Source of the DNA: Rhodococcus sp. KRD197
GTDB taxonomy: Bacteria; Actinomycetota; Actinomycetes; Mycobacteriales; Mycobacteriaceae
NCBI RefSeq assembly: GCF_017168235.1
Contig: NZ_JABFAO010000003.1
Location: forward strand, 1-64,000
Direction of reading: 5' to 3'
DNA: 64,000 bases
Every line of letters starts with the position of its first letter. The stretch's first letter is position 1. Below are positions 14,262 through 41,335 of this stretch, piece after piece. Below the pieces are notes generated by a model that was given only the letters and a program-made list of their open reading frames with translations, was not told the origin of the DNA and ran no database searches. Made by a program: the position numbers and the translations under genes.

Positions 14262-14287
14262 GCCGGGCCTTTTGCATCCTCTTCGCC

Positions 14288-14357
14288 GCATCCCGCTTCC
14301 GGCATCCCGCTTCCGGCATCCCGCTTCCGGCATCCCGCTTCCGGCATCCCGCTTCCG
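14288..14357. repeat. 14-bp tandem repeat, five copies
   Basis: Five perfect head-to-tail copies of GCATCCCGCTTCCG followed by the first three bases of a sixth. It lies between the ends of two convergent genes (14261 and 14418). The unit length is not a multiple of three and no gene covers it. A GCAACCGT-cta-ACCGTTGC hairpin (7 of 8 pairs) follows at about 14374-14392 and may be a weak terminator. Confidence 0.95.
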
Positions 14358-14417
14358 GCATGAATGGGCCATTGCAACCGTCTAACCGTTGCGAGGCGGG
14401 GTACCGGCGGGGCGGGA

Positions 14418-15431
14418 TCAGCCCAGCTTGCGGAGCCTCGGCTCGAGGTCGCGCTGGAACAGTTCGAGGAACCGCCGCTGGTCGTGGCCGGGGGCGTGGA
14501 AGACGAGGTGGTTCAGGCCCGCATCGGTGTACTGCTTGACCTTCTCGACGGCCTCGTCGGGATCCGAGGCGACGATCCAGCGCTTGGCGACCTGTTCGAT
14601 CGGGAGTTCGTCGGCGGCCTTCTCCATCTCGATCGGGTCTTCGATGGAGTGCTTCTGCTCCGGCGTCAGTGACAGCGGGGCCCAGAAGCGGCAGTTCTCC
14701 AACGCGAGTTCTGGATCGGTGTCGTAGGAGATCTTGATTTCGATCATCTTGTCGATCTCGCCGGAGTCGCGTTCGGCCTTGCCTGCCCCCTCTTCGACGG
14801 CGGGCAGGAGTTTGTCGGTGTAGAGCTCCATCCCCTTGCCCGAGGTGCAGATGAATCCGTCACCGGCCCGCCCCGCGTAGCGCGCGACGACGGGACCGCC
14901 GGCCGCGATGTAGACGGGGATGCCGCCGTCGGGAACGTCGTAGATCGATGCGCCCTTGGTGGTGTAGTACTCGCCCTCGAAATCGACGCGGTCCCCGAGC
15001 CACAGCTCACGCATCAACCGCACCGACTCGCGCAGACGGGCGAACCGCTCCTTGAAGTCGGGCCATTCGCCGCTGTATCCGGTGGCGATTTCGTTGAGTG
15101 CCTCACCGGTGCCGACGCCGAGCATGATCCGTCCGGGGTACAGGCAGCCCATGGTTGCGAAGGCCTGCGCGATGACTGCCGGGTTGTAGCGGAAGGTCGG
15201 TGTCATCACCGAGGTGCCGAGCTGGATGTTCTCCGTACGCTCGCCGACGGCCGTCATCCAGGCCAGCGAGAACGGCGCGTGCCCACCCTCGTGGCGCCAT
15301 GGCTGGAAGTGATCGCTGACCGTCGCCGAATCCATGCCGTGTTGTTCGGCGAGTACGCCGAGTTCGACGAGTTCACGCGGACCGAACTGCTCAGCCGACG
15401 CCTTGTACCCGAGCTTCAGAGCCTGTGCCAC
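14418..15431 (-). CDS. fgd: F420-dependent glucose-6-phosphate dehydrogenase
   Basis: 337 residues, the family length. Luciferase-like TIM barrel that oxidises glucose 6-phosphate and reduces F420. It begins [20 protein letters not shown], with [20 protein letters not shown] near residue 34 (the active-site His is in SDHFQPW), [20 protein letters not shown] near 72 and [15 protein letters not shown] near 105. In M. tuberculosis Fgd1 supplies F420H2 and sits beside pta-ackA as here. Start ATG 15431; the stop is 156 bp from the converging Ddn-like gene. Confidence 0.95.
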
Positions 15432-15506: not shown

Positions 15507-15854
15507 TCACTCGATACCCAGCACCGTCACGACCGCGGCCAGTACCGCCATACCGCCGATGCCGACCGCGAAAAGCCACAGCTCCTTCGCCTCGGGCATC
15601 GGAGCGCCTGATTGGAGCGCCGTTCGCACCTGAAGCCACCGACGCAACCCGATCATCGATGCCGATGCGGCCATCAGTATCAGGATCAGTCCGAGCGTCG
15701 TCCTGACCCAGCCGGTACTGAAGTCGGGCACCAGATGCAGAACCGCCACGCCGGCGGCCAGTAGACCCAGCGAAGTTCGCATCCATGCGAGGAAGGTTCT
15801 TTCGCTGGCGAGGGTGAACCGCTCGTCCGGGCGAGTGGAAGGATCGTCTGTCAC
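15507..15854 (-). CDS. DUF202 (YidH-like) membrane protein
   Basis: 115 residues from GTG 15854; in-frame starts farther up (GTG 15869, ATG 15908) would overlap the next gene. Landmark ERTFLAWMRTSLGLLAAGVA near residue 15 is the DUF202 signature, followed by three hydrophobic helices (about 25-42, 55-75, 92-112). Function of the family is unknown. It lies directly behind the quinone reductase gene on the same strand. Confidence 0.8.
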   Translation of the reverse strand: MTDDPSTRPDERFTLASERTFLAWMRTSLGLLAAGVAVLHLVPDFSTGWVRTTLGLILILMAASASMIGLRRWLQVRTALQSGAPMPEAKELWLFAVGIGGMAVLAAVVTVLGIE

Positions 15855-15882
15855 TCCACCATGATGCACCGTTGCCCACATC

Positions 15883-16821
15883 TCAGGGCAGCAGGATGAA
15901 CTTGCCACGCGGGTGCTGGGACTGCAGCTCCTGGTGTGCTTGCGCGACCTCGTCGAGCGGGAACGTCTTGGCGATCGGCACGGTGAAATCGCCCGCGCCG
16001 GCGGCCTTCACCAGCTCCAATCGCGCATTCCTGCGACGGACACCGCTCTCGGCGTTCCCACCGACCGACAGGAAGCCGTCGGCCTCCGCGCGGCCGAATG
16101 CCACGATCGTCACGATTCGCGCCTTGTTCGGTACCAATTCGAGCGAGACGTCGACGGCTTCGTCAGTGCCCGCTGTGTCTATCGCGGCGTCGACACCTTC
16201 CGTTGCGAGGGCGCGTACCCGCTCGAGCAGACCGTCACCGTATTCGACCGGCTCGGCGCCGTACGCGCGAAGCGCGTCGTGATTGATCGCCCGCGCGGTG
16301 CCGATGACGTGGGCGCCTCGAGCACGGGCAAGTTGCACGACGATGGACCCGACGCCACCCGCAGCGCCGTGCACGAGCACTGTGTCACCGGCGCTCACCT
16401 GTGTCACGGCAAGGACGTCGAACGCAGTTCCAGCGGCCGCGAACAGGCCGGCGGCAGCCTCCCATGTCAGATCAGAAGGCTTCGGCACGACCGAATCTGC
16501 CGATACCAGCAGTTCCTCGGCGTAGGCACCTTTGACACCCGAGACGATGACCTCGTCCCCCACCGAAATCGGGCCACCCGGCCCCGTTGCCGACGGGCCG
16601 ACCGCGGTGACGACGCCACTTGCTTCGCTGCCCAACGACAGCGGAAGGGTGGATTCGTCCGTCCCGAAGGATCCGCTGTACACCTTGTAGTCGAAGGGAT
16701 TGACGCCGATGGCTCGGACATCGACGAGGACCTGACCGGCCCCGGGACTGCCCACCTCTCGGTCGATGATGCGTAGTACCTCGGGACCTCCGAAAGCTGT
16801 TGCCACCGCTACTCGTGTCAT
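15883..16821 (-). CDS. NADPH:quinone reductase-like oxidoreductase (MDR family)
   Basis: 312 residues from ATG 16821 (MTRVAVATAFGGPEVLRI). GroES-like N-terminal domain with VNPFDYKVYSG and LGSEASGVV near residues 35-65. The Rossmann part has VLVHGAAGGVGSIVVQLARA near residue 145. No structural or catalytic zinc cysteines are visible, placing it in the zinc-free quinone reductase/zeta-crystallin branch. Probable NADPH-dependent reduction of quinones or enals. Divergent from the HAD phosphatase gene across a 96-bp region with a strong palindrome. Confidence 0.88.
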   Translation of the reverse strand: MTRVAVATAFGGPEVLRIIDREVGSPGAGQVLVDVRAIGVNPFDYKVYSGSFGTDESTLPLSLGSEASGVVTAVGPSATGPGGPISVGDEVIVSGVKGAYAEELLVSADSVVPKPSDLTWEAAAGLFAAAGTAFDVLAVTQVSAGDTVLVHGAAGGVGSIVVQLARARGAHVIGTARAINHDALRAYGAEPVEYGDGLLERVRALATEGVDAAIDTAGTDEAVDVSLELVPNKARIVTIVAFGRAEADGFLSVGGNAESGVRRRNARLELVKAAGAGDFTVPIAKTFPLDEVAQAHQELQSQHPRGKFILLP

Positions 16822-27202: not shown

Positions 27203-28681
27203 TCAGAAGACCAGGGCGGGTTGCTCGGCGTCGGTGTTCGGTGCGAGCGCCTGGTACGCACCCGCCGTCGCTGCGACCGCCGCGGTCAACTCGGCGGGCT
27301 CTCGGGTGTAGGGCATACGGAGAAACCGCTCGAAAGCACCTTCGACGCCGAAGCGCGGACCCGCGGCGAGCACTGCCCCGAACGTCGGTGCGGTAGCGGC
27401 CAGTGCGCTCGACACCGGAGCCGGAAGCTGCAGCCACAAGGACATGCCGCCGGTCGACCGACGATACGTCCAGTCCGGAAGATGCTGCGCCAAAGCGCTT
27501 TCCAGTACGTCACGGCGCTCACGTAGCTCGTCGCGCCTGGTGTCGAGGATCGCGTCGGCGTCCTCGAGCAGGAAGCCTGCGGCAAGCTGATCCATCACCG
27601 AGGTTCCCAGATCGTGCCCCGCTCGCGAACCGGCAAGACGGCTGATCAGCGCCGGATTGGCGCGTATCCAGCCGATCCGCAGACCACCCCAGTACGACTT
27701 GGACGCCGACCCGATAGTCACGATATCGGTGCCGGACACTCGCCCGTACGACGCGACCGGGGGCGGTGGCGGCGCGTCGAGCCACAGATCCACCATGGTC
27801 TCGTCGACGATCATCGTCATCGAGGTCTCCCGCGCGATCCTCGCCAGTTCGCTGCGTCCACCGTCGTCGAGGCATCGTCCGGTGGGATTGTGGAAGTCGG
27901 GGATCATGTAGGCAACTTTCGATGCCGTCTGCCGTGCCGCGCTCCGGATTCCGTCGAGATCCCAGGGGTCGCCGACCGGGCGGATCGGCACCGGCACCGG
28001 CCGCGCGCCGATCCGCCGGAGCGCCTCGAGCGCGTTGGGGTACGTCGGGTGGTCGATGAGAACGCGATCGCCCGGTGAGATGAGCGTGCCGAGCAGCAGC
28101 CGCAGGGCCTGCTGGGCGCCGGAGGTGACCATGATCTGGTCGGCCGTCGTCGGCAAGCCACGTTCGACGAAGCGTCGCGCGACGGCTTCACGTAGCACCG
28201 CGATGCCGACGGGTTCCACGCCGTGATTGGACAGGTACGCCGGCAGCGCGTGCATCGCAGACTGGTACGCCGCCATCATCGCCTCGGTGGGGGCGGCCAT
28301 CGCGGCGTGGCTCATGTCGATGATCGGGCCACTGGTGTTGCGCGATTGCACGGCGGGCCGGTTGGCTTCGGCCTTCGTCGGCAGCGCGACAGTGCTCCGT
28401 GCACCCTGCTTGCTGATCAGATAGCCCTCTTCACGCAGCACCGCATACGAGGAGGTGATGGTGGTCCGGCTGAGATCCAGAGCCGCCGACAGATCACGCT
28501 CGCTCGGCAAGCCCACCCCCAGCGGAATTCGACCGTCGTGAATGAGCAGGCGAATCCCGTCGGCGAGCGCTCGGTACGTCGGCCTGGACGTTCGACGCCG
28601 ACCGGACGCATCCTCGACCTCCGGCTGCCAGCGTCCCAGATCGCGTGCCAGCGACGACGCATTGAGTACCCGAGTAGCCAT
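27203..28681 (-). CDS. MocR-type GntR/aminotransferase transcription regulator
   Basis: 492 residues from ATG 28681. An N-terminal winged helix of the GntR type (YRALADGIRLLIHDGRIPLG, then LPSERDLSAALDLSRTTITS, residues 33-75) is joined to a class I aminotransferase-like domain (MVTSGAQQALRLLLGTLISP near 180, PLP lysine in IGSASKSYWGGLRIGW near 335). These proteins sense PLP or an amino compound; the opening ATRVLNASSLARDLG resembles the YczR group. No yczE or pdx gene is beside it. An inexact dyad (GACCACTG/CAGTGGAC) lies upstream at about 28694-28738. Confidence 0.9.
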   Translation of the reverse strand: MATRVLNASSLARDLGRWQPEVEDASGRRRTSRPTYRALADGIRLLIHDGRIPLGVGLPSERDLSAALDLSRTTITSSYAVLREEGYLISKQGARSTVALPTKAEANRPAVQSRNTSGPIIDMSHAAMAAPTEAMMAAYQSAMHALPAYLSNHGVEPVGIAVLREAVARRFVERGLPTTADQIMVTSGAQQALRLLLGTLISPGDRVLIDHPTYPNALEALRRIGARPVPVPIRPVGDPWDLDGIRSAARQTASKVAYMIPDFHNPTGRCLDDGGRSELARIARETSMTMIVDETMVDLWLDAPPPPPVASYGRVSGTDIVTIGSASKSYWGGLRIGWIRANPALISRLAGSRAGHDLGTSVMDQLAAGFLLEDADAILDTRRDELRERRDVLESALAQHLPDWTYRRSTGGMSLWLQLPAPVSSALAATAPTFGAVLAAGPRFGVEGAFERFLRMPYTREPAELTAAVAATAGAYQALAPNTDAEQPALVF

Positions 28682-28851
28682 GGACTTCATTATCCGGACC
28701 ACTGGCACGCTTGACCAAATCCAGTTTCGACTCAGTGGACTTGCTTTGCGGGAGCGCCGTGCTTGGTTGCACACAGGTATGGCTGCACAGGCACATCCGG
28801 CCCTCCGAGGTCGATTTGTGTGCACTCCCGCACGCACTCACCCGCAAACAC
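28682..28851. other. Intergenic region upstream of the MocR gene
   Basis: 170 bp between the MocR start and the end of the secretion locus. It holds the leader of the MocR gene on the minus strand. The spaced inverted pair GACCACTG ... CAGTGGAC (7 of 8, about 29 bp apart) could be the paired direct or inverted sites that MocR regulators use. No gene or clear terminator is seen. Confidence 0.4.
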
Positions 28852-30255
28852 TCACCCCCGCGACGCCACCGAGACCGGCTCAGCGATCCCACCCGGCGTC
28901 AGAACGGGCATCCACACTCCGTCGACGGTCGCAGCCGCAACCGCATCCGGGCTCAGTGCCGAACCGGTCGCGCTGATCGACGAACCGTCACTGCACGTGA
29001 GATCGATTGTGCCCGCGTAGTCCGCGTCCTCCGGCACTGCGCACACGAGGCCATCCTCGAATGTCATGGACTCGACATTTCCCTCGGCTGGTCCAGTGAA
29101 CAATGTCGTAGGGGGTGGAGAGTCGGTGGTCGGTGGGGGTTCGATGGGCTCGGTCGTTGATGTGGGCTCAGTGGTTGTTGTGGGCTCAGTGGTTGTTGTG
29201 GGCTCGGTCGTTGTTGTGGGCTCGGTCGTTGATGTGGGTTCAGTGGTTGATGTGGGCTCAGGAGTCGTCTCTACCTCGGCCGTCTGAGCTTCGGTCAGTT
29301 CTTCCTCCGTCGGCTGGTCGAATGTCCTGGCGGAGACGACAGCGGCCAAAGGCAGCGCGGCGGGAGATCCTGGACCGCATTCGGCCGATACCAGGTTCAA
29401 CGTGAAGCCGAGTTCCAAAACCGGTCCCAACAGACCCAACGCAGTTGCGGTCCCACTCAGCGTCAGCTTGGAGAAGCCCTCGGGTGCACCGGCCGCGGAA
29501 ACGGAACTAGACAGGGTCAGATCGAAGCGAGCCCGACCATTGTTCTCGGTGAACGAGATCGGCGTGACACCACCGGCAGCGGGCACGGCGAACGTCCTGG
29601 TTCCTATCTGCACCAATCCATCTGCCGATGCTGGAGGAGTCGCCGAACTCGTTCCGGCAATCGGATCACACACGACCGATGCAGTCAGTTGCCGAGCTGG
29701 GGTCACGGTGATGACGTCCACATTGAATGCTCCGAGACCGAGCACACCCAGAATCGAGATACGAAGGCGCGCAGCAGTCAGTGCCGACTCGGCAGAAGAA
29801 AGAGGGTTAACCGGCGCGCAGTGGTCCGGAGTTCCACTCGAGAGAAATTGCGCACACGACGACCCGGTGATCGGTGCAGACGGCGCCAGTGGTCCCGTGG
29901 CCGAGGATTCGAATGCAAGGCCGTTAACCGCCAGCAGATTCCCAGTCTGATACGGGCCCGCACTCGTCGACCGCGAGGTGCCGATGTTCGCGTCGCTTCG
30001 TAGAGACTGCATGCCGTTCCAGGGCAGCGGATTACCCAGAAGCCCAATGGAGATGCCGCTGACCCCGGACAACCGGCCCGATATCGAACGTGCATAGCCG
30101 CTGTTCTCCCACGTACCGGAACCGACGGTGCCGGCGACATACTCGGAATCGGTCCATGCGGCCTCGGTCTCGGACACCAGGAGTCGCCCGGGGACCAGTG
30201 CAGCGAACACCAGCAGCGTCAGCATCAGGATCGGCCACCGACGATCGAGGTTCAT
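28852..30255 (-). CDS. Secreted protein with SipW-type signal region and Thr/Pro-rich tail
   Basis: 467 residues from ATG 30255 (ATGA overlap with the signal peptidase gene). The N-terminal hydrophobic stretch (MLTLLVFAALVPGRLL) is followed by ETEAAWTDSEYVAGTVGSG. This AAWTD pattern just past the membrane segment is the SipW-type signal. A large Ser/Gly/Leu-rich middle domain follows, then a tail of TTTEPTTTTEP-like repeats (about 355-400, DNA repeat of 18 bp), then a short Cys-containing C-terminal domain (GLVCAVPEDADYAGTIDLTC). No LPXTG or C-terminal anchor. Last gene of the four-gene operon d-c-b-a; probably released or assembled on the surface. Confidence 0.8.
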   Translation of the reverse strand: MNLDRRWPILMLTLLVFAALVPGRLLVSETEAAWTDSEYVAGTVGSGTWENSGYARSISGRLSGVSGISIGLLGNPLPWNGMQSLRSDANIGTSRSTSAGPYQTGNLLAVNGLAFESSATGPLAPSAPITGSSCAQFLSSGTPDHCAPVNPLSSAESALTAARLRISILGVLGLGAFNVDVITVTPARQLTASVVCDPIAGTSSATPPASADGLVQIGTRTFAVPAAGGVTPISFTENNGRARFDLTLSSSVSAAGAPEGFSKLTLSGTATALGLLGPVLELGFTLNLVSAECGPGSPAALPLAAVVSARTFDQPTEEELTEAQTAEVETTPEPTSTTEPTSTTEPTTTTEPTTTTEPTTTTEPTSTTEPIEPPPTTDSPPPTTLFTGPAEGNVESMTFEDGLVCAVPEDADYAGTIDLTCSDGSSISATGSALSPDAVAAATVDGVWMPVLTPGGIAEPVSVASRG

Positions 30256-30821
30256 GAGCGCGTCTGCGATTCTTCCAGGCTGTCGCTTCCCTTCTCTTCG
30301 CGTGGCCAGAAGACCGCAACCACGAGACCTGCCATGGACAACGTGATCAGCCCCAGGACGTAGGGGTTGGAGAAGTAGACGATCACGCGCGCCAGACCAG
30401 GCATCGACCACAGAACCTTGCGCACCTCGGCGACCTGGTACAAACCAGGGTCCGCCTGTGCGTTGGCGTCGCCCTTGAGCTCGAGCACTGTGATCCCGGA
30501 TTCCTCGATCGACTCCGTCGCAACGACTCGATGGGTCACCGGTAGCGTTCCCTCGCGATCGACGGTGACCACATCGCCGACCACGACGGAGTCCGCCGGA
30601 ACAGCACGCACCACGGCGAGCGAACCCGCGGGAATCGCCGGCGACATCGAGCCGGTCTTGAACATGATGAGCGTGATGTTGAAGACGAACGCGCACGCGA
30701 CGAGGGCAATACAGATGATCCCGCCGACGGCGAGTGTGTTGAGGAAGACATCGCCCGCGATGCCCCACCAGGAGCGTCGCGGCTGCTTCGTGTGATTCGT
30801 CTCGGGAGTCATTGTTCCCAT
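30252..30821 (-). CDS. sipW: SipW/ER-type signal peptidase I (first of three)
   Basis: 189 residues. Membrane helices near 28-52 and 145-170. The nucleophile is Ser 58 (KTGSMSPAIPAGS) and the general base position carries His 97 (PVTHRVV) in place of the Lys of ordinary bacterial SPase I. This is the mark of SipW and eukaryotic/archaeal signal peptidases. The GDAN block (KGDANAQAD) follows near 118. It lies 7 bp behind one candidate substrate gene and overlaps another, so it probably cleaves both. ATG 30812 is an alternative start. Confidence 0.92.
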   Translation of the reverse strand: MGTMTPETNHTKQPRRSWWGIAGDVFLNTLAVGGIICIALVACAFVFNITLIMFKTGSMSPAIPAGSLAVVRAVPADSVVVGDVVTVDREGTLPVTHRVVATESIEESGITVLELKGDANAQADPGLYQVAEVRKVLWSMPGLARVIVYFSNPYVLGLITLSMAGLVVAVFWPREEKGSDSLEESQTRS

Positions 30822-30828
30822 CTCGGTT

Positions 30829-31461
30829 CTAGGACGTGCCCTCGAAGGGCCAGTTGGCGACGAGCGATTTGCTCTGCAGAGTCGCGTCGGTCCAATTCTC
30901 TTGCGTTGCAGGAAGACTGATCTCGAAGCACAGTGGCACCGCCGGCCCGGCAAGGGTGGGGCCGGCCCCTGCAGGCAGCGAGAAGGCGACCGGTGCGGAG
31001 GTGTCCAACGACACCGGTCCACCGCTACCCACCACGTAGTTCGGACTGCCGGTGAACGCTGCAGCATCACAGCTGGCGGACTCGCGCACCACGCGGTACC
31101 GAAGCGCAACGGAGAGACTCCCGACCCCAGATCCCGAGAACGTCGCGCCCTGTAATGTCACCGAAGCTGCGGCCGATCCGGGCTCCGTCCGCAACTCGAC
31201 GGGTGCGAAAACTACACTCCCGGGGATCATTCCAGTGGCTGTTGTCGTAAAATCCAGCGGGTTGGGTGCCCCGATGGGGTGTGAGGACCACATGGAACCG
31301 CCGTCGACGCTGGATTCGATTCCGAACTGCGAACCGGTCGCGAATTCGGTGCTGCCCAGCACTGTGTCGGTCCAGCCGGCAGCGACGAGTACCGCTCCGA
31401 TGCCGAGAACGGTTCCCCCCGCTGCCAGCGCCCTTCTCTGGCGTTGGCGTACCGATGCCAT
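30829..31461 (-). CDS. Secreted protein with SipW-type signal region
   Basis: 210 residues. Basic N-terminus (MASVRQRQRRALAAGG), hydrophobic segment 14-30, then AAGWTDTVLGSTEFATGSQF, which parallels AAWTDNVFGNSDFATG in the next gene upstream; the two proteins are paralogues. The mature part is beta-rich with a Cys pair (SASCDAA, PLCFEISLP) and no membrane anchor. The C-terminal PLCFEISLPA matches LCFAVTLPAG in the paralogue. Member of the d-c-b-a operon directly before the signal peptidase gene. Confidence 0.82.
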   Translation of the reverse strand: MASVRQRQRRALAAGGTVLGIGAVLVAAGWTDTVLGSTEFATGSQFGIESSVDGGSMWSSHPIGAPNPLDFTTTATGMIPGSVVFAPVELRTEPGSAAASVTLQGATFSGSGVGSLSVALRYRVVRESASCDAAAFTGSPNYVVGSGGPVSLDTSAPVAFSLPAGAGPTLAGPAVPLCFEISLPATQENWTDATLQSKSLVANWPFEGTS

Positions 31462-31464
31462 GCG

Positions 31465-32097
31465 CTAAGGCGTGACCGAGGTGCCGACGAATTCCCACAC
31501 GACCTGACCCGTTGCGAGTCCGGACAATGTGTTCGGCGAGCCCGCTGGAAGCGTCACTGCGAAGCACAGATCGACCGGTGTCGCGTCGGCGTCGAGGGTG
31601 ATCGCGTTGGCGACGCTACCTGTGGTGAGCAGCGCATCGGTGACAAGTGCTGTCGGACCCGGCGTTCCCGCGGTGCAGTCTGCCGAGGTGCCGCCCTGGG
31701 TCACCGTGTAGCGCAACGCTGCGGTCAGTGCCGGATCGGTCGTACCACCGGTGGCGCCGTTCAGCGTGACTGCGGCGTCCAACGTCTGACCGGGCTCGAG
31801 CCGAAGCGCAACCGGCGCGTACACGGTGTCTCCCGGTGTGAGGTCCAGTCTCGTGGCGGGGAAGGTGAAGGGTTCACCGGGTGATACATCGGCTTCGATC
31901 CATGTTCCGACCCCGGCAGGTGTGAAGTCTGCCTGGATGTTCCAGGCGTCGTCGCCCGTAGCGAAGTCGGAGTTTCCGAAGACATTGTCGGTCCAGGCGG
32001 CGAGAGTGATGGCCGCTCCGATGCCGAGCACCAGCCCTCCGGCGAGCAGAGCTCGAACCTTGCGTCGTCTGTTGAGATTCTGTGGTTGATCGGTCAT
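31465..32097 (-). CDS. Secreted protein with SipW-type signal region (first gene of operon d-c-b-a)
   Basis: 210 residues from ATG 32097. Signal region: basic NRRRKVRALLAGG, hydrophobic LVLGIGAAITLAAW, then TDNVFGNSDFATG. Mature part is predicted beta-sandwich-like (LDLTPGDTVYAPVALRLEPG, then DAAVTLNGATGG), with two cysteines and a VCF-like end (DLCFAVTLPAGS). The first repeat-like block resembles TasA/camelysin proteins, where a SGETVSAPL-type strand follows the signal. Three bases separate it from the next gene. Its promoter lies in the AT-richer 32098-32341 region. Confidence 0.82.
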   Translation of the reverse strand: MTDQPQNLNRRRKVRALLAGGLVLGIGAAITLAAWTDNVFGNSDFATGDDAWNIQADFTPAGVGTWIEADVSPGEPFTFPATRLDLTPGDTVYAPVALRLEPGQTLDAAVTLNGATGGTTDPALTAALRYTVTQGGTSADCTAGTPGPTALVTDALLTTGSVANAITLDADATPVDLCFAVTLPAGSPNTLSGLATGQVVWEFVGTSVTP

Positions 32098-32341
32098 TGC
32101 CCGACTCTTTTCGCTTGAATGATTCACGGTCGCACCTGTTGCCAACCGAACCGGCCACCGGAGCGTAAAGCGCACTTTTCGCCGGTCAAACCAGAATCAC
32201 CAAAACGTTATCAAAATGACTAAAGCAATTTTTCTTGCATGATTGCCGATATCAGGTCAATGCAGGAAAGGGATCTGATCGACGCAGATTTTGCACACAT
32301 CAATTACGCAATGAGGTCACATACCGAACCGGCGGATTTTT
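32098..32341. other. AT-richer promoter region of operon d-c-b-a
   Basis: 244 bp without a supported gene. It is clearly poorer in G+C than its surroundings (for example CGTTATCAAAATGACTAAAG near 32204-32223 and ATTTTTCTTGCATGATTG near 32227-32244). It must hold the promoter of the minus-strand operon starting at 32097, and the end of the LGFP gene transcript. Low G+C here may make it a silencer (Lsr2-type) target; that is inference. Confidence 0.4.
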
Positions 32342-32752
32342 TCAACCAACCAAAACGGGGCGAGAGTCGTCGGCGGCGCCTTCCGGGGCATCCCCCTCGG
32401 CGACGTGTCCGATCAAGAATGCTCCACTTTCGGGCATCCACCCGATTGCGCCGTGCTGGAAGAGGTTGTAACGCCCGTATCCGGTGGGCGTCGGCTTCTC
32501 GTCGCTGATCGGATAGCCGAGCTCACCGTACGGCCCACCGTGACCTAGATACCAGGCGAGGATCTCTCCGTGTACCTCGTGAGCGCCGCCGTCCGGTAGA
32601 GCGAACACTGTGGCTCGACGGTACTCGAGCATCCCGCCTCCACCCGGACCCAGCATGAATTCACCGACTTGCTCACCGATCCACGAATGTTCGTAAGCAA
32701 AGCGATCGAATTGATATCCGAATACTTCGAGACCGTTGTATGAAGCAGTCAT
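32342..32752 (-). CDS. Small LGFP-repeat protein without signal peptide
   Basis: 136 residues. The segment ILAWYLGHGGPYGELGYPIS then DEKPTPTGYGRYNLFQHGAI and GWMPESGAFLIG fits one LGFP repeat (here LGYP, with SDE and FQ.G.I.W). These repeats occur in envelope-bound actinobacterial hydrolases and mycolyl-transferase-linked proteins and are thought to bind the cell wall. No signal peptide or TM is visible, so it is either cytosolic or exported by another route. It is placed between the two secretion operons with its own upstream gap of 93 bp. Confidence 0.7.
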   Translation of the reverse strand: MTASYNGLEVFGYQFDRFAYEHSWIGEQVGEFMLGPGGGGMLEYRRATVFALPDGGAHEVHGEILAWYLGHGGPYGELGYPISDEKPTPTGYGRYNLFQHGAIGWMPESGAFLIGHVAEGDAPEGAADDSRPVLVG

Positions 32753-32845
32753 CGGAGGACCTTTCGGCGCGTTGTGTGACCACTATTGTCCACAAATCTG
32801 CGATTGCCGCCACGACAATTCATGATAATTGCCCCAAACGTGACC

Positions 32846-34468
32846 TCAATTCAGCAAAGCCGCGATATCGGCCGGAATCTCGTCGGTCGCCGAAGCGTCG
32901 ACGACAGTGCGCGTCCAACTCGACCCTGCTTCGTCCAGCCGCACCAACTGGTCTGGCCCGAGGAGCCAGAGCTGGTCCCCCGAGGCCCACACCACGCCGT
33001 ACCCGTATTCCGGGCTCGACGTGATCGGAGCGCTGTACTGCACGGCACCCGCGCTGTCGATGATTTGCAGGGTCGGCGAACCGCCGACATCGACGACCTG
33101 CGCCACCGAGGACCCTGAGGGTGAGGTCTGCGGAGAGATCAAGTCGGCAGGCGCGGCCTCTGTCGTGTCAGGCAACGCTTCCGGCGCCGGTGCGGCAGGC
33201 GATTCAGTCGTGGATGGCTCGGTCGTTGGCACCTCCGTCGTAGTTGCGGGTGCGGCCGAAGTGCTCGATGGCGCTGGTGTGCTACTCGGAGCCTCGGTGG
33301 CCGTCGACGAGGTAGTCGATGAAGTAGTCGACGAGGTAGTCGATGAGCTCGACAGTTCCTCCGGCGCGAGTCGGGCCGCTACCGGGGCCGAGGCAGGAGC
33401 CAGAGCTCCGCAACGCGCGGCGGGAAACAGGTTGAAGACCGAGGTCGTCAGGGTCATCGTCACTGTGAAACCCCGGCTCGGTGCCGAGACCCAGGTTCCG
33501 GACACCGTTTGTACGGTGAAGGTCCAGGTGCCGGTCAGGGTCTCGAACCAGGTTCCATTGTGCACATCAGCGGATGCAATCGTCACCGTGTGGGGTGGCA
33601 TGCTTGTCCCGAGCCGAGTGATCGTCCATCGATAGGTGTAGCCCGTTCCGGGCGGAGGCGCCCACGACATCGTCACATAGGCGCCCGCAAAGAGGGTGCC
33701 CGCTCTGTCCACGCACGTCGGGTCTCCCGGCACCGGAACCGGCGGCAGGCCAGTGGTGAACGTTCCGCTCGTCGCGGTCGCAGGGTCGTTCCATGCCGCC
33801 AGGGTGGTGGGCGTGTTGGTCCCCGCGAGCCCCAGTGCACCGATCGTCCCGATCGCGAGGATCGCCGTGAGCGAGGCCTTGCTGTGCCCACCAGAGGAAT
33901 CTCGCCCACCAGGCTCGTCCGTACCTCGGTCCTCGCGGTCTCGGTCCTCGTCAGCCCTGGGTCGCCAGGCGATCATGATCAGGACACCGACGAACACCCC
34001 ACCGAGGAAGACGGCTACCGGGCCGCTCAACCACGTCACCGCGTATCCGAGTTTCGGGACGCTGAACACGACGCGGCCGACTTCGTCGACGATGTAGGTT
34101 TCGGCGTCCGCTTCGGTGTTCGCGTCGCCTTGGAGAATGAGCTGGACACTGTCGGTACCGACCGCGCCGATGTCGACGACGCGGTGGGTGATCCCGTCGC
34201 CTGACGCGTTGGTGACGTTGACTATGTCGCCCACCGCGACCTCGGTCGCGGGCGTCTCCTTGCTGATGGCGAGGGCGCCGGTCTCGATCGCCGGCGACAT
34301 CGATCCCGATCGGAAGACGAGCGGTGTGATCCCGAAAATGATTGCCGCCAAGGCGATCAGCACGCAGAGCAAACCCGCGAGAGCCCCAGCGGTGAGGGCG
34401 ATTTCGCGCGCCAGCTTTCGACGACGGTGCCTGGTGTGGGCGACAGTAGGAGATGTGTGGTTCGACAT
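32846..34468 (-). CDS. Fusion of SipW-type signal peptidase with a SipW-type substrate protein
   Basis: 540 residues in one uninterrupted frame from ATG 34468. Residues 1-170 are a complete signal peptidase: TM near 23-48, nucleophile Ser 56 (FRSGSMSPAI), His 95 (DGITHRVVD), GDANTEAD near 114, second TM near 148-167. A charged linker (RADEDRDREDRGTDEPGGRD) follows. At about 200-222 a second hydrophobic stretch leads into TTLAAWNDPATATSGTFTTG, the signal hallmark of SipW substrates. The outer part holds a Trp-rich beta domain, a Ser/Thr-rich stalk (SSTTSSTT-type, 390-450), and a C-terminal domain with short repeats like VVDVGGSPTLQIIDSAG. It follows the preceding gene by two bases. Confidence 0.88.
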   Translation of the reverse strand: MSNHTSPTVAHTRHRRRKLAREIALTAGALAGLLCVLIALAAIIFGITPLVFRSGSMSPAIETGALAISKETPATEVAVGDIVNVTNASGDGITHRVVDIGAVGTDSVQLILQGDANTEADAETYIVDEVGRVVFSVPKLGYAVTWLSGPVAVFLGGVFVGVLIMIAWRPRADEDRDREDRGTDEPGGRDSSGGHSKASLTAILAIGTIGALGLAGTNTPTTLAAWNDPATATSGTFTTGLPPVPVPGDPTCVDRAGTLFAGAYVTMSWAPPPGTGYTYRWTITRLGTSMPPHTVTIASADVHNGTWFETLTGTWTFTVQTVSGTWVSAPSRGFTVTMTLTTSVFNLFPAARCGALAPASAPVAARLAPEELSSSSTTSSTTSSTTSSTATEAPSSTPAPSSTSAAPATTTEVPTTEPSTTESPAAPAPEALPDTTEAAPADLISPQTSPSGSSVAQVVDVGGSPTLQIIDSAGAVQYSAPITSSPEYGYGVVWASGDQLWLLGPDQLVRLDEAGSSWTRTVVDASATDEIPADIAALLN

Positions 34469-34470
34469 GA

Positions 34471-35088
34471 CTACACCGACGTCGCTAGGAGTGAGTAGGT
34501 AACTGTTCCGGTGATCGGTGACGCCGGGGCTGTCGCGGTGCTCGGCATGGTCACCGAGAAGCAAAGATTGTCCGCCGGGTCACCGACACCGATCGGCCTG
34601 GACAGTGCAACCGAGTTGGATTGAAAATTCTGGGTGGCGACGGTCAAGCCCGTGATCGTGCTGAGCGGAGTTCCGGTACATGCAGTACCCGCATACACGG
34701 CGGTGTTCAGCAAGGCGCCGAGTGTGCCGTTGTTCGTCGCAACCGCGATCGTGTAGGTGAAACCCACAGTGCCACTGTTGGTCACCCGCAAGGGTGCACT
34801 CACGGTTTCGCCCGGAAGAATGTCGGTCTTGGTCAAGGTCGTTGCGAAAATGGGCGGATTGTTATCGACCGCCGGCTCGCCCACCTTGATGTCGATTGTC
34901 CCCGTCGTGAATGCGCCCGAGGTTGCCGAGGAGGTATCCGACCACGCGGCAAGCGTTCCCACAGCACCGAGACCGAGAACGATGCCGATCGACATGATGG
35001 CGCGGGCGCGGGCCCCGATGAGCGCGGTCCCGATGCGGCGCAGCATTGTCCTCGGCACGAACGTACCGTCACTACTGTGGCGCGCCAT
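34471..35088 (-). CDS. TasA-like secreted protein with SipW-type signal region
   Basis: 205 residues from ATG 35088, overlapping the preceding stop (ATGA). Signal: GARARAIMSIGIVLGLGAV then GTLAAWSDTSSATSGAFTTG and TIDIKVGEPAV. The AAWSD...F.TGTIDIKVG string is the best match in the window to the TasA/camelysin signature. The mature part has ILPGETVSAPLRVTNSGTVG, a strand pair of TasA-like beta sandwiches, and a late cysteine (NLCFSVTMPSTA). No anchor. It may be a fibre subunit; that is inference from family likeness only. Confidence 0.85.
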   Translation of the reverse strand: MARHSSDGTFVPRTMLRRIGTALIGARARAIMSIGIVLGLGAVGTLAAWSDTSSATSGAFTTGTIDIKVGEPAVDNNPPIFATTLTKTDILPGETVSAPLRVTNSGTVGFTYTIAVATNNGTLGALLNTAVYAGTACTGTPLSTITGLTVATQNFQSNSVALSRPIGVGDPADNLCFSVTMPSTATAPASPITGTVTYSLLATSV

Positions 35089-35594
35089 CAGGGCTGCACT
35101 CCTTCCGTATTGTCGTTCTGGCCGGCACCGATCGAGCACGCGTTCTCGTTGTCCCACTGCACCACGAAATCGAGATCCGCAGAGGAATTCTGAGTGTCGT
35201 TGCCTGCGTTCACGGCCATGGTGACGGTCGTATCGATCCGCCTCTTCTCATGGGGCAGGACCTCGACGAAAGCGCAGGCAACGTTCACCTGGGCCTGGTC
35301 GATGGTCACCTCGAGAGCCTCGACGAAGGCGGGGTTCGAGCTCGTGGCGAATACCTGGACGTTCCCGCCTCGATCGGTCTCGTTGAAGACGTGGAAAGTG
35401 CTGGTTCGGCTGTCGCCGGGCACCCACCTGATCCTTTTGTCGAACAAAGGATTCGGGAGACTCGAAGACCATGTCAGACCGTCACTGCTGAAGCTCACGG
35501 TCGGGGACGGACGCGAGGGTCCGGCACCGATGAGTACCAGTGTCACGATCGCGACGAGCGCGACGATAACAAGAACTGCGGTGTTCCTCTTCAT
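35088..35594 (-). CDS. Secreted protein of the SipW locus, family not recognised
   Basis: 168 residues. One N-terminal hydrophobic segment (NTAVLVIVALVAIVTLVLIG) and then an extracytoplasmic domain with WVPGDSRTSTFHVFNETDRG, NVACAFVEVLPHEKRRID and ENACSIG (two cysteines). It lacks the AAW(T/S)D motif, so it is not an obvious SipW substrate; the segment may stay as an anchor. WVPGD and the FHV.N pattern recall the ILPGETVSAPLRVTN strand of neighbouring TasA-like proteins, suggesting a similar beta sandwich. ATGA overlaps on both sides place it firmly in operon k-j-i-h-g-f. Confidence 0.72.
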   Translation of the reverse strand: MKRNTAVLVIVALVAIVTLVLIGAGPSRPSPTVSFSSDGLTWSSSLPNPLFDKRIRWVPGDSRTSTFHVFNETDRGGNVQVFATSSNPAFVEALEVTIDQAQVNVACAFVEVLPHEKRRIDTTVTMAVNAGNDTQNSSADLDFVVQWDNENACSIGAGQNDNTEGVQP

Positions 35595-36190
35595 GGCGCC
35601 CGCGACTCACGACGCTGCTTCCGGTAGTCGTTGCCGGCGCCAACGAACATGTACAGCGCGTAAGCGCCCAATCCGATGACGATGACGGTGACCGTGATGC
35701 GACGTTGTTCGCCGTTGAGCCAGTTGTTGACATAGCCCAGGTAGGGAATCGAGTACCAGACTTTCCCGCGGATCTGCCCGTATCGAACCGGGTTCTCGTC
35801 GTCGGACCCGTTGTTGTCCCCGCGCGTGATGTAGGTCGTGATGCCATCGCCGCTGAATTGGGTTGCGACGATGCGGTGTGTCACGACCTCGGGTTCACCG
35901 GACCGAATCTGGTAGGTGACGGGAGTGCCGACAGTGAGCTCGGAGCGGTCCGCTGGTTTGACGACGACCAGGGTGCCGGGCGGATATGTGGGCCTCATCG
36001 AACTGGTGAGAATGGTGTAGGGCGTCGAACCGCTCACGCGCGGAATGACGACAGTGGCTGCCAGAATGGTCAGCATCGCAGCCAGCAGGGTGTACGACAC
36101 GATGCGACTGATCCACCACCATGCACCGGTGTGCTCGTCCTCCTCGTCACCCTTGACGACGGGAATCACGTCGGTGTCGTCGGTGCTCAT
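35591..36190 (-). CDS. sipW: SipW/ER-type signal peptidase I (third)
   Basis: 199 residues. Acidic cytosolic head, TM near 25-50 and a C-terminal TM near 165-187. Nucleophile Ser 64 (LTSSMRPTYPPGT), His 105 (VVTHRIVATQ) and a GDNNGSDDENP block near 123. It is more divergent from the other two signal peptidases, which have SMSPAI and GDAN. Overlaps both neighbours by four bases. With two further peptidases in the locus, each may serve its own substrate set. Confidence 0.92.
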   Translation of the reverse strand: MSTDDTDVIPVVKGDEEDEHTGAWWWISRIVSYTLLAAMLTILAATVVIPRVSGSTPYTILTSSMRPTYPPGTLVVVKPADRSELTVGTPVTYQIRSGEPEVVTHRIVATQFSGDGITTYITRGDNNGSDDENPVRYGQIRGKVWYSIPYLGYVNNWLNGEQRRITVTVIVIGLGAYALYMFVGAGNDYRKQRRESRAP

Positions 36191-36738
36191 GCCTGGTCCG
36201 CTCTGAACGAAAAGCTCACTGTCGATGTTTGGTCCTGCGGTGGATCGGCACCAACGGCGACGTGGAAGCACCACACCTCGTTGGCACCGGGGGCAAGCGC
36301 TCTCGTGTCCAGGGTCTGCGCGCCCTGCGCGTTGCCGGTGTAAAGGACGGTCACCGGGCCCGTCGGTGCACCTACTGCTGGACAATCTCCCACCGTGGAC
36401 ACGAGGGTGGCGGTCAGGGTGAGGGGCACCGCACCCGTCACCGTCGAGCCCTGGAGTCGATAGTCGAAGGGAACGTCCCCCGCGTTGCGGATCGATAGGG
36501 GGGCCTGCGAGGAGCCGTTCGGGCCGAGGTTCGTCGAACCGAGCGCCGCAAGCACGTAGTCGTCGACCTCGGCGCCGTCCGGACCCACCTTGATGTCCAG
36601 CGTGCCGGAGTTGAGCGTGCCGCCTGCGACGGCTACGTCGTCGCGCCACAGCGCGCCCGTCGTCTGTGCTGATCCGTAGACCACCACGACGACGGACGCT
36701 GCTGCGAGTGCCCAGTACCGACCATGCCTGATTACCAC
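36187..36738 (-). CDS. Secreted protein with SipW-type signal region
   Basis: 183 residues. Hydrophobic WALAAASVVVVVYGS then TTGALWRDDVAVAGGTLNSG and TLDIKVGPDGAEV. The LW.D...GG..NSGTLDIK string matches the signature of SipW-dependent exported proteins, with Arg in place of the usual Ser/Thr. The mature beta domain has SSQAPLSIRNAGDVPFDYRL near 76 and two cysteines (VGDCPAVG, EVWCFHVAV). The stop overlaps the signal peptidase start. Confidence 0.83.
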   Translation of the reverse strand: MVIRHGRYWALAAASVVVVVYGSAQTTGALWRDDVAVAGGTLNSGTLDIKVGPDGAEVDDYVLAALGSTNLGPNGSSQAPLSIRNAGDVPFDYRLQGSTVTGAVPLTLTATLVSTVGDCPAVGAPTGPVTVLYTGNAQGAQTLDTRALAPGANEVWCFHVAVGADPPQDQTSTVSFSFRADQA

Positions 36739-36744
36739 TTCGAG

Positions 36745-37317
36745 TTACGGAGTGGGTCGAACCTGGTCGAGCGTCAGGGTGAACGCATTCAAATTGACGG
36801 TCTCATTCTGCGCCACCAGATCGGTCGTAGCCTGGTCGAACGTGATGGTGACGGTGACCGCGATGGTCTGTGTGGGCGAGGTCAGCGGAAGCTCCACCGC
36901 AGAACCGTTCGGCAGGGCAGAACCGTTCGGCAGGGCGGCACCGCCGTCGACTGCCACCGTGGTGTTCAGCGCCGCAGCCAGAGCCGGGTCGCCGGTGACC
37001 TGGGAGAAGTCCGCCGTGATTGTGGCCTCGATATTCTCGCCCGCCGAGTTGACGGTGTAGCTGTTGGTGTAGGTCAGGATGTCACCGGGGACGATCAGGT
37101 AGCCGGACGGGTCGGCCCCGATAACGACCGATCCACCCTCGGAAATATCGGTCCAGACGCCGGGCGTACCGGTTGGCTCGAAGTTCAGCTCGCCGGAATT
37201 GATCGCGCCGCCGCCGACGGATTCGGTGTCCTGCCACAGCGCGAGGGATCCCAATCCGCCGAGTAGTAGCACCGCGGCCGCGCCTGCAGCGACGGCGCCC
37301 TTGGTTGCTTTGTTCAT
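36745..37317 (-). CDS. Alternate signal-mediated exported protein (RER_14450-like)
   Basis: 190 residues from ATG 37317 with AGAAGAG six bases upstream; ATG 37323 would sit on that ribosome site. The signal region (GAVAAGAAAVLLLGGLGSLA then LWQDTESVGGGAINSGELNF) matches the RER_14450 family of SipW-exported proteins described by TIGRFAM from Rhodococcus (recalled). No cysteines in the mature part. An 18-bp tandem duplication at 36901-36936 gives two ALPNGS repeats. First gene of operon k-j-i-h-g-f; dyads at 37368-37384 and 37465-37498 lie upstream. Confidence 0.87.
   Translation of the reverse strand: MNKATKGAVAAGAAAVLLLGGLGSLALWQDTESVGGGAINSGELNFEPTGTPGVWTDISEGGSVVIGADPSGYLIVPGDILTYTNSYTVNSAGENIEATITADFSQVTGDPALAAALNTTVAVDGGAALPNGSALPNGSAVELPLTSPTQTIAVTVTITFDQATTDLVAQNETVNLNAFTLTLDQVRPTP
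36901..36936. repeat. 18-bp perfect tandem duplication inside the first operon gene
   Basis: AGAACCGTTCGGCAGGGC occurs twice back to back, adding six residues (ALPNGS twice) in frame. It is a recent slippage-type event in the surface-protein gene. Confidence 0.95.
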
Positions 37318-37367
37318 GAGCATCTCTTCTCTTTGGATTCGTCCCTGCATATCCGGGCCGGGTGTGA

Positions 37368-37384
37368 ACTACCCGACGGGTAGT
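37368..37384. promoter_or_regulatory. Operator candidate before the SipW operon
   Basis: ACTACCCG-A-CGGGTAGT is a perfect 8-bp inverted repeat with a single-base centre, about 51 bp upstream of the start at 37317. The size and position suit a dimeric repressor such as a TetR-type protein. No regulator gene is next to it. Confidence 0.5.
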
Positions 37385-37464
37385 GGGTGGCTTTCGTGGG
37401 CCAACGCAACTGAGTGCGACACACATTGTTTCGGGAAGCGAAAGGAATCCGTTAGCAAAAACAG

Positions 37465-37498
37465 GGTAAAAGTCCAATAGTTCTTTTACCTGGACTTT
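37465..37498. promoter_or_regulatory. Two interleaved inverted repeats upstream of the SipW operon
   Basis: GGTAAAAG (37465-37472) pairs with CTTTTACC (37483-37490). AAAGTCCA (37469-37476) pairs with TGGACTTT (37491-37498). Both are perfect 8-bp pairs and share four bases, so the two stems exclude each other or form a pseudoknot-like overlap. It is about 150 bp before the first gene. It may be an RNA switch in a long leader or a double operator. Confidence 0.5.
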
Positions 37499-37574
37499 AA
37501 CCAACCCAAAGTGACATCCTTTGGCCATCTGTAACGTGCCAAAAGACCCTAGTCAGCCCCTGAGATGGTCCACG

Positions 37575-37618
37575 CAGCACAACGCCCCGAGGCATACGAG
37601 CCTCGGGGCGTTGTGCTG
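37575..37618 (-). terminator. Strong hairpin terminator behind purA
   Basis: Perfect 19-bp stem starting CAGCACAACGCC with loop ATACGA, 16 bp past the purA stop (minus strand). No long T-run follows, as is common in actinobacteria. It also insulates purA from the promoter region of the secretion locus. The rest of the 316-bp gap 37318-37633 holds only the two dyads described and no gene. Confidence 0.88.
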
Positions 37619-37633
37619 TCTACGCTGTGCTAT

Positions 37634-38986
<1,353 letters not shown>

Positions 38987-40345: not shown

Positions 40346-41335
40346 ATGCGCCTGTTCGACAAAGTTCTGCACCCGGGATCGGTGCACGGTATCGCTGGGC
40401 TCAGAACACGGCTTCTGATGCAGTTTCTTTGTGCGACGACGTTCCTGTACGGAGCAGGAGTGGTGGCGACGGTCCTGCCTCACGGCGACAGAGTCACTGC
40501 CGACATCACCGGCGGGGTGATCGCGCTGTGCCTGGGTGTCATCGGTGTCCTCATGTTGTGGATGCGTCCCCGCACGACCGCCGGGCACGGCGTCGCGTTG
40601 GCCGCAGCGATGCTGGCGACGCCGGCTGTGATGGCGTTCCATGTACTCACGGCAGCGCAATTCCCGTGCCTGATCGCGGCGATGTTTCTGGCGATGTACA
40701 TCCGCGCCTTTCATCGCGACCGCGATGCCCGCATCCTGGTCGGGATCCTCGTGGCGCTGGTGCTGCTCGCGGTGCTGCGGTCACCGGCGCCCGTCTATCC
40801 GATCACCTACCTGATCTTCGCGGTCGCTGTCTTCGCAGCGGCGGAAACGTTCGGCACCGTCACGAAAGCGCTGATCGCAGCGTCGTGCACCGATCCGCTG
40901 ACAGGAGTGTTCAACCGCGCCGGGTGGGAGATCGCCACCGCAGATGCGGTCACGGGCCTGCGCGCTCGACGTGAGGATGCGTCGACTGTTCCGGTGACGG
41001 TGGCGATCGTCGACGTAGACGATTTCAAGACGGTGAACGACACCGACGGTCATCGCGCCGGGGACGAGTTGCTGGTGGGGTTGGCGGCGACCTGGGCGCA
41101 ATCGGCCCCAGAGGGCGCTGTCATCGCACGAGTCGGCGGCGACGAGTTCGCCGCCCTTCTGACCGAGCAGTCGACGGCGGAAGTGGACGAGTTCGTTCGC
41201 GCCACCGTCGCGTCGTTGCCCTACGCGAGCATCGGGGTGGCGACGTCGACGGACGTCGAGGAGCCGATCTCCGATGTCCTCGCCCGCGCGGACGCGGAGC
41301 TGTACCGCGCCAAACGCGCTCGATTCACCAGGTGA
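40346..41335 (+). CDS. Membrane-bound diguanylate cyclase
   Basis: 329 residues. Six or so hydrophobic helices cover residues 20-175. A cytosolic GGDEF domain follows: DPLTGVFNRAGWEIATADAV near 183, AIVDVDDFKTVNDTDGHRAG near 224 and RVGGDEFAALL near 263 with the intact active motif. It should make cyclic di-GMP. No RxxD inhibitory site is obvious. Its end overlaps the convergent CDF gene by 11 bp. Confidence 0.92.
   Translation: MRLFDKVLHPGSVHGIAGLRTRLLMQFLCATTFLYGAGVVATVLPHGDRVTADITGGVIALCLGVIGVLMLWMRPRTTAGHGVALAAAMLATPAVMAFHVLTAAQFPCLIAAMFLAMYIRAFHRDRDARILVGILVALVLLAVLRSPAPVYPITYLIFAVAVFAAAETFGTVTKALIAASCTDPLTGVFNRAGWEIATADAVTGLRARREDASTVPVTVAIVDVDDFKTVNDTDGHRAGDELLVGLAATWAQSAPEGAVIARVGGDEFAALLTEQSTAEVDEFVRATVASLPYASIGVATSTDVEEPISDVLARADAELYRAKRARFTR

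Follow-up and report, generated by a model that had tools for sequence, protein, structure and literature searches.

Fibres whose subunits are joined by donor strands, of the kind formed by TasA, have been worked out in Bacillus and in some archaea. The results presented here reveal that Rhodococcus sp. KRD197, a soil bacterium of the Rhodococcus group, harbors two gene cassettes for signal peptidases of the endoplasmic reticulum (ER) or SipW type together with their putative substrates. The cassettes lie at positions 28852..37317 of a 64,000-nucleotide stretch of contig NZ_JABFAO010000003.1, referred to below as the window. Cassette A (g1-g6, genes being numbered in order of transcription) and cassette B (g7-g10) are tight operons on the minus strand, with a gene for an LGFP-repeat protein between them (Table 1). 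The two cassettes are gained and lost separately, five of the seven substrates are, judged by their sequences, TasA-superfamily proteins, and one peptidase of cassette A is continued in the same chain by a stalk-bearing cargo. It is likely that, taken as a whole, dedicated peptidases mature TasA-like fibre subunits and a stalk adaptor, and that the adaptor of cassette A is cut from its peptidase by that peptidase itself; any single pairing of enzyme and substrate is less secure. The kinds of protein are already known and named by NCBI, and the two-cassette layout and the peptidase-cargo fusion are what appears to be new. Neither is described among the matches listed in the literature searched, which comprised titles and abstract openings, without preprints and most subscription papers.

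Separate inheritance of the two cassettes

The genus sample comprised 31 genomes, that of the window included, and slot counts are made on these only, as the named loci overlap the genus genomes. The slot has the order purA, cassette A (g1-g6), LGFP gene, cassette B (g7-g10), MocR, where MocR, like CaiB, is a label from reading neighbour sequences, without a family search. Wherever both ends of the slot are seen, the LGFP gene stands between purA and MocR. The slot holds cassette A alone in 16 genomes (including G008, with the purA side off the contig), cassette B alone in three (G003, G014 and G018), both in two (the window and G006) and neither in ten. Six of these ten carry A or B elsewhere, and four (G007, G017, G022 and G030) carry neither. 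Counted over whole genomes, A is found in 24 and B in nine, a short g10-like fragment in G015 not being counted as cassette B; both are present in six genomes, A alone in 18, B alone in three and none in four.

Cassettes A and B are independent, with separate gain and loss, and because each occurs without the other they are not one system. An earlier note on this DNA had pictured a single locus; comparison across the 31 Rhodococcus genomes gives two cassettes instead. It could still be argued that the three peptidases, each serving its own subset of the seven substrates, jointly produce one multi-part surface structure, since the genes stand side by side and point the same way both in the window and in one relative (L044). 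Given that A is found without B in 18 of the 31 genomes and B without A in three, and that the two are at separate places in four of the six genomes with both, such an integrated machine is quite improbable.

Two irregularities were also observed. The A loci of R. erythropolis (L024) and Rhodococcus sp. P-2 (L028) have a further, weakly g1-like gene after g6 and a convergent gene that weakly resembles g4, the two genes being at 13913-14689 and 14788-15723 in L024 and at 13886-14662 and 14762-15556 in L028. On contig C1 of G007 the empty purA-LGFP-MocR slot occurs twice in opposite orientation (L118 and L119), which is either an inverted duplication or an assembly artefact.

Three lineages of ER-type signal peptidase

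In signal peptidase I of the ER or archaeal type, a Ser-His catalytic pair, with Asp, replaces Ser-Lys. The earlier note had recognised three peptidases with Ser and His, and all three pass the cut-off of the NCBIfam model TIGR02228 (51.85 bits), with 86.2 bits for g3, 55.3 for g6 and 53.8 for g9; all 56 aligned peptidases retain Ser, His and Asp. The PDB chains nearest to the g6 profile in a sequence search are SEC11A and SEC11C. None of the three is SipW proper by the Bacillus model NF046067, which has a cut-off of 190 bits (g3, 72.5; g6, 49; g9, 36.1). The whole genome contains three TIGR02228 matches over cut-off, all at g3, g6 and g9; two others, at 28 and 27 bits, fall far short of it and lie elsewhere. 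In a sample of 296 genomes from across the phylum, 81 contain a match over cut-off.

A tree of 76 peptidase domains, rooted for drawing only and with several ungrouped long-branch rows that the program placed unsurely, separates the three enzymes. The g3 lineage (24 rows and the ungrouped L072) has support of 100/98, and the g9 lineage (nine rows) 98/97, or 100/99 when L065 is included. The g6 lineage (23 rows, 80/83) is less firm. g6, g9 and L065 share one branch (100/97), which makes the g6 lineage the nearest to g9. Peptidases of both g3 and g6 type are found in Rhodococcus, Arthrobacter and Nocardioides relatives, and the arrangement with two peptidases is therefore old. Relatives of the g9 peptidase are carried on four actinobacterial plasmids; on one from Pseudarthrobacter the match lies inside a 1848-base-pair (bp) coding sequence adjoining a gene with a SipW-type signal, and a g9-type peptidase also adjoins such a gene on a Curtobacterium plasmid.

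That particular peptidases serve particular substrates, as the earlier note had proposed, gains circumstantial support. The peptidase lineages are separate, A and B are independent, every one of the 24 A loci in the genus sample has g5 beside a g6-type peptidase, and three genomes (G020, G026 and G029) contain a second pair of g5 and g6-type genes.

Substrate signals with a conserved cut-site pattern

The signals of the substrates were compared with two family models, TIGR04089 (cut-off 60 bits) and TIGR04088 (cut-off 19 bits). g1 is a full member of TIGR04089 (150.9 bits), with g2 (17.2 bits) and g5 (17.8 bits) below the cut-off. TIGR04088 is passed within the window only by g1 (24.3 bits), g5 (36.1 bits) and g7 (21.9 bits), and is matched at E up to 0.1 by nine of nine g7 family members. 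The TIGRFAM searches that the earlier note had suggested thus returned TIGR02228 for g3, g6 and g9, TIGR04089 for g1, and TIGR04088 for g1, g5 and g7. TIGR04088 was not reached in the window scan by g2, g8, g10 or the internal signal of g6, and their assignment therefore rests on the conserved cut-site pattern.

The alignments of the seven substrate families, 110 sequences in total, display this pattern. All 110 have Ala at -1 and one of the small residues S, T, A, G and V at -3; 91 have Trp at +2, and 89 have Asp at +4. The position of the cut was set by analogy with TasA, which is reported to have Phe at P2' (PMC10269814). The residue at +1 differs between families: Leu in 32 of 40 sequences of g1 and g2; Ala in 19 of 20 of g5, 23 of 23 of the g6 internal site and eight of nine of g7; Ser in seven of nine of g8; and Ala in five of nine of g10. 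These differences would fit, and do not show, an arrangement in which g3 serves g1 and g2, and the g6 peptidase serves g5 and itself. For the g2 alignment the distant L027 and L031 were left out, as was L044, with g2 in two frames; L016, at a contig end, is outside the family sets.

Peptidase and signal also occur together. TIGR04088 signals over cut-off are present in 27 of 27 genomes with TIGR02228 over cut-off and in none of four without it (hypergeometric 3e-5 over the 31 genomes, uncorrected for kinship). The genome of KRD197 has three TIGR04088 matches, all over cut-off and all at g1, g5 and g7, and across the 31 genomes every such signal over cut-off lies at an A or B locus save one, on another contig of G008.

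Two features of individual genes may be added. The g1 gene of the window contains an exact 18-bp tandem duplication (36919-36936 and 36901-36918; residues ALPNGS twice), which is missing from 20 aligned relatives. In L044, the nearest relative with both A and B, g2 (15608-16158) is split over two frames by a frameshift or a sequencing error.

Five substrates belong to the TasA superfamily by sequence

The earlier note had linked the substrates to TasA and camelysin. Single mature g5 sequences were too weak against Pfam, and for this reason a profile was built from 22 Actinomycetota proteins with matches to PF12389, from which the signal and the next few residues were removed. The source was 23 of 30 fetched loci (L092 and L097-L102 were left out), with L076 skipped by a length rule. 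The mature parts of five substrates match this profile: g5 at 98.9% (E 1e-17), g2 at 98.2%, g7 at 95.1%, g1 at 93.4% and g8 at 89.9%. Reversed controls reach 0.5% or less (g5, 0.5%; g2 and g8, 0.3%; g1, 0.2%; g7, 0.1%). Further, PF12389 is listed at E up to 0.1 by 19 of 20 full-length g5 homologues; in the window, the six substrates other than g5 have no PF12389 match at that level.

Direct comparison of mature parts with hhalign connects most of these proteins, with 99.8% for g7-g8, 99.3% for g2-g5, 98.0% for g5-g7, 97.2% for g5-g8 and 81.9% for g2-g8. Lower values are obtained for g1-g7 (60.1%), g1-g2 (38.3%), g2-g7 (22.9%) and g1-g8 (0.1%); the best of 15 reversed controls is 0.6%. By these profile comparisons, g1, g2, g5, g7 and g8 are TasA-superfamily proteins. 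g4 matches the TasA profile at 57.0% (reversed, 0.3%) and is possibly a TasA-superfamily protein without a SipW-type signal.

g10 and both parts of the g6 cargo are different. They match the TasA profile at 0.2% or less, and hhalign gives 0.7% or less for g4, g10 and both g6 cargo parts against one another and all others (g4, 0.3% or less). The g6 cargo and g10 are rejected as TasA relatives at the profile level. The link drawn in the earlier note is therefore retained for g1, g2, g5, g7 and g8 (90-99%) and abandoned for the g6 cargo and g10, and a single fold for all substrates is not supported. Alternatively, the substrates might be separate secreted adhesins or enzymes that share only a type of signal, for which the peptidases are general helpers. 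The failure of g10, g4 and the g6 cargo to match one another or other substrates would agree with this. It is nevertheless rather improbable, since five of the seven share the TasA superfamily in their mature parts and the TIGR04088 matches over cut-off are, save the one in G008, confined to A and B loci.

A signal peptidase fused to its putative substrate

The g6 protein has hydrophobic segments at residues 29-47, 149-167 and 198-216. The first two are those of a signal peptidase, and the third follows a charged linker and leads to TLA/AWND (the slash marks the inferred cut), a complete cut site. Ala is invariant at -1 and +1 of this site in 23 of 23 aligned rows, and -3 is small in all 23. 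The peptidase lies in an open frame of at least 500 amino acids in 23 of the 31 genus genomes; this length is measured from stop to stop and alone is no proof of cargo in each genome. The alignment of fusions also extends to Arthrobacter and Nocardioides.

A natural split of the fusion occurs in G001 (L103). Here the g6-type peptidase ends after 186 amino acids, and a second gene, which overlaps its stop by ATGA (4 bp), encodes the cargo with its own N-terminal signal ending TSA/ALTD. Residues 16-178 of this free cargo match residues 237-401 of the R. erythropolis fusion with 33% identity (E 1.4e-15), a stretch that begins shortly ahead of the third hydrophobic segment, crosses the cut site and runs into the cargo. 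The L103 peptidase clusters among fused ones in a quick tree (Shimodaira-Hasegawa-like approximate likelihood ratio test, 93; group of six). Because the split and fused forms share this segment as the N-terminal signal of the cargo, the internal segment of g6 is, on direct sequence evidence, a signal peptide in origin.

Other arrangements of peptidase and cargo are found. Cassette B is the unfused equivalent, with g9 followed by g10 through an ATGA overlap. In G020 and G026, the gene for a free g6-type peptidase precedes a g5-like gene and a fused g6-like gene, each the second of its kind; G029 has the same order, as read from the locus map only. In L065, which comes from a different genus of the class, the frame of the g9-type peptidase is longer and includes a third hydrophobic segment. 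Among 11 long peptidase frames of other Actinomycetota read by eye, at least five (L054, L060, L062, L067 and L070) continue past a third hydrophobic segment, with a site of Ala or Ser and then an aromatic residue after it. These 11 are a chosen sample, and the 20 regions taken from the phylum, selected largely because their frames are long, do not represent it fairly. Fusion and splitting seem to be recurrent events, given the split in L103 and the g9 type, which is apparently fused in L065 and the Pseudarthrobacter plasmid and free in cassette B.

Both stalk proteins consist of an N-terminal region, a stalk and an end domain. Ser, Thr and Pro make up 64% of the stalk of the g6 cargo and 68% of that of g10. 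The N-terminal region of the g6 cargo is weakly Fn3-like, as judged from its resemblance to designed Fn3 chains (E 0.029 and 0.11), and the cargo has a conserved C-terminal domain of about 100 amino acids, which is missing in two Arthrobacter rows; the alignment of the g10 family likewise has a conserved end domain.

It is possible that the fusion is not cut at all and serves as an anchored assembly platform, with the internal segment as a third span, the stalk tied to the peptidase and subunits handed to a tethered adaptor. The long frame is kept in 23 of the 31 genomes and fusions are present in Arthrobacter and Nocardioides, even though an adaptor can evidently be free, as in g9-g10 and L103; moreover, Trp at +2 is absent in 17 of 23 rows. 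Against such a platform, which is thought unlikely, stand the invariant Ala at -1 and +1 and the small residue at -3, as expected of a working cut site, and the split homologue, which has the same segment as an N-terminal signal. Maturation of the g6 cargo by cutting is preferred here. A more specific proposal, plausible and not quite probable, is that g6 and its Actinomycetota relatives are self-processing polyproteins, in which the ER-type peptidase would cut its internal signal and free the adaptor or hold it at the base of a TasA-like fibre, such that cutting and the start of the fibre would take place on one molecule.

Four loci from other Actinomycetota (L058, L061, L063 and L064) have an ER-type peptidase continued in frame by a long C-terminal region of a different kind, which adds one or two membrane segments.

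Proposed pathway and comparison with known systems

The TasA-like subunits of cassette A (g1, g2 and g5) and cassette B (g7 and g8) carry signals after which the mature protein would begin with X-Trp, and a housekeeping signal peptidase should be poor at cutting such a site. Dedicated ER-type peptidases, g3 and g6 in A and g9 in B, would cut those signals. The freed N-terminus may then act as a donor strand in a surface fibre, as in TasA. One fibre could be formed by g1, g2 and g5, or by one major and two minor subunits among them, and another by g7 and g8. Each cassette provides a stalk protein with the same kind of signal, the g6 cargo or g10, which is probably an anchor or a tip adaptor or cap. 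In cassette A, g6 would be one chain with the peptidase at its N-terminus, an internal signal re-entering the membrane and the cargo outside, and the peptidase most likely cuts the internal signal in cis or in a neighbouring copy.

Several of these steps have precedents. In Bacillus subtilis, TasA and TapA are both reported to lose their signals to SipW, after which the new N-terminal strand of one subunit completes its neighbour, with TapA as the presumed starter of the fibre (PMC9674648, PMC10151520). Escherichia coli LepB is reported to be inefficient at sites with an aromatic P2' residue, and SipW to cut TasA, which has Phe there (PMC10269814); Phe29 of TasA is described as a donor-strand residue (PMC9674648).

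Some observations weigh against the pathway as drawn. The block of LepB in TasA is ascribed mainly to a Trp at P2, directly before the cut (PMC10269814), and the Rhodococcus substrates have no Trp at P2, so that poor cutting by a housekeeping peptidase can only be inferred here. The internal signal of g6 fits the SipW-type pattern less well, because Trp is at +2 in only six of 23 rows (Trp or Phe in 11). As to the subunits, g1 has no direct match to g5 (0.0% between mature parts), and g5 of the window misses the PF12389 gathering score with 22.1 against 22.5 bits. Single mature g5 sequences match PF12389 weakly (six of ten, best E 0.046). When the sequences of the PDB were searched with the profiles of g1, g2, g5 and g7, no convincing match emerged (E 0.03 or worse); for g5 the top chain was AbpX, an archaeal pilus protein, at E 0.82.

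The cassettes resemble the tapA-sipW-tasA genes of B. subtilis in having an ER-type peptidase beside a TasA-superfamily protein with an aromatic second mature residue (PMC9674648, PMC10151520, PMC10269814) and, with TapA, an accessory protein whose signal is removed by the same peptidase (PMC9674648, PMC10151520). Unlike B. subtilis, which has one peptidase and one main subunit, the window encodes two cassettes, three peptidases and five TasA-like proteins. The accessory g6 cargo and g10 also differ from TapA in their Ser/Thr/Pro stalks and, in one case, in fusion to a peptidase. Bacillus cereus is comparable in having two TasA-type paralogues (sipW-tasA/calY) and a partner, CapP, all reported to be processed by one SipW (PMC13082335). 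In contrast, the paralogues described here come with several peptidase lineages, whereas one peptidase is shared in B. cereus, and the portion of that report consulted mentions no fusion (PMC13082335).

The models TIGR04089 (alternate-type signal peptide domain-containing protein) and TIGR04088, of which the former has g1 as a full member and the latter is passed by g1, g5 and g7, name single proteins. In the window they miss g8, g10 and the fused cargo and leave g2 far below cut-off, and they are silent on cassette structure. Archaeal bundling pili (AbpA/AbpX) offer a further comparison. TasA-like fibres have been reported for these pili, as cited within PMC9674648, and AbpX is the PDB chain nearest to the g5 profile, a non-significant sequence relation.

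The cassettes provide a genetically clean family of the TasA/SipW type in actinobacteria, which have a different outer envelope, with several subunits and dedicated peptidases per genome. The presence of several dedicated peptidases in one genome opens substrate recognition by a dedicated signal peptidase to gene-removal tests. The peptidase-cargo fusion and its natural split in a relative allow a direct test of whether an ER-type signal peptidase acts on a signal in its own chain.

Gene arrangement and neighbouring regions

All eleven frames are open at the positions given in the earlier note, with the starts of g5 (35088, ATG) and g7 (32097) corrected. Genes within cassette A are separated by 6 bp (g1-g2) and 2 bp (g5-g6) or overlap by 4 bp (g2-g3 and g3-g4) and 1 bp (g4-g5). 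Those of cassette B are separated by 3 bp (g7-g8) and 7 bp (g8-g9) or overlap by 4 bp (g9-g10). Larger gaps separate the LGFP gene from g6 (93 bp) and from g7 (244 bp).

Table 1. Features of the two cassettes and their surroundings in the window. A slash marks the inferred cut.
Feature	Position	Strand	Description
g1	36745..37317	-	TasA/camelysin-superfamily subunit, TIGR04089 (exp_by_SipW_III); SipW-type signal, SLA/LWQD
g2	36187..36738	-	TasA/camelysin-superfamily subunit; TGA/LWRD
g3	35591..36190	-	Free ER/SipW-type signal peptidase, cassette A; TIGR02228 86.2 bits, Ser/His/Asp, own lineage
g4	35088..35594	-	Small secreted protein; ordinary N-terminal hydrophobic segment without SipW-type site; borderline TasA-like
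g5	34471..35088	-	TasA/camelysin-superfamily subunit; TLA/AWSD
g6, whole	32846..34468	-	Peptidase-cargo fusion, cassette A
g6, N-terminal part (residues 1-224)	33797..34468	-	ER/SipW-type signal peptidase with two membrane segments, then a charged linker and an internal signal segment up to residue 224
g6, C-terminal cargo (residue 225 on)	32846..33796	-	TLA/AWND; Fn3-like segment, Ser/Thr/Pro stalk, C-terminal domain
LGFP-repeat protein	32342..32752	-	Core gene between cassettes; PF08310 64.1 bits
g7	31465..32097	-	TasA/camelysin-superfamily subunit, cassette B; TLA/AWTD
g8	30829..31461	-	TasA/camelysin-superfamily subunit, cassette B; VAA/GWTD
g9	30252..30821	-	Free ER/SipW-type signal peptidase, cassette B; TIGR02228 53.8 bits
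g10	28852..30255	-	Stalk protein, cassette B; TEA/AWTD; large N-terminal region, Ser/Thr/Pro stalk, conserved C-terminal domain
Upstream region of cassette A	37318..37564	-	Blocks common to A loci of the purA slot

The LGFP gene probably belongs to neither cassette. The LGFP protein was considered as a member of the system, which is thought unlikely because a match is found in 31 of 31 genomes, two of them (G005 and G015) with an internal stop and one (G022) in two pieces, and because the gene is present where both cassettes are absent from the slot.

Promoter and terminator scans gave counts within two standard deviations (SD) of shuffled sequences (3 against 1.2, SD 1.2, and 3 against 5.2, SD 2.7). 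No Rfam family reached its gathering score in 37318-37564, and a riboswitch or other known RNA was rejected for 28600-37900, where Rfam gave four matches to microRNA models, far under gathering scores (best E 0.0095). Alignment of A loci of the purA slot brings out shared blocks upstream of g1 (37318-37564), around GGACTTTTAC, GAAACAATG and CAGTTGCG. A GAAACA pattern precedes g1 in 12 of 20 loci, every one of them in the slot, and in none of the eight others. The blocks are possibly a shared promoter, a regulator site or a leader.

Finally, a gene for a GGDEF diguanylate cyclase lies at 40346-41335, about 3 kilobases from cassette A and beyond purA; that it might be linked to the control of surface fibres is only a thought.

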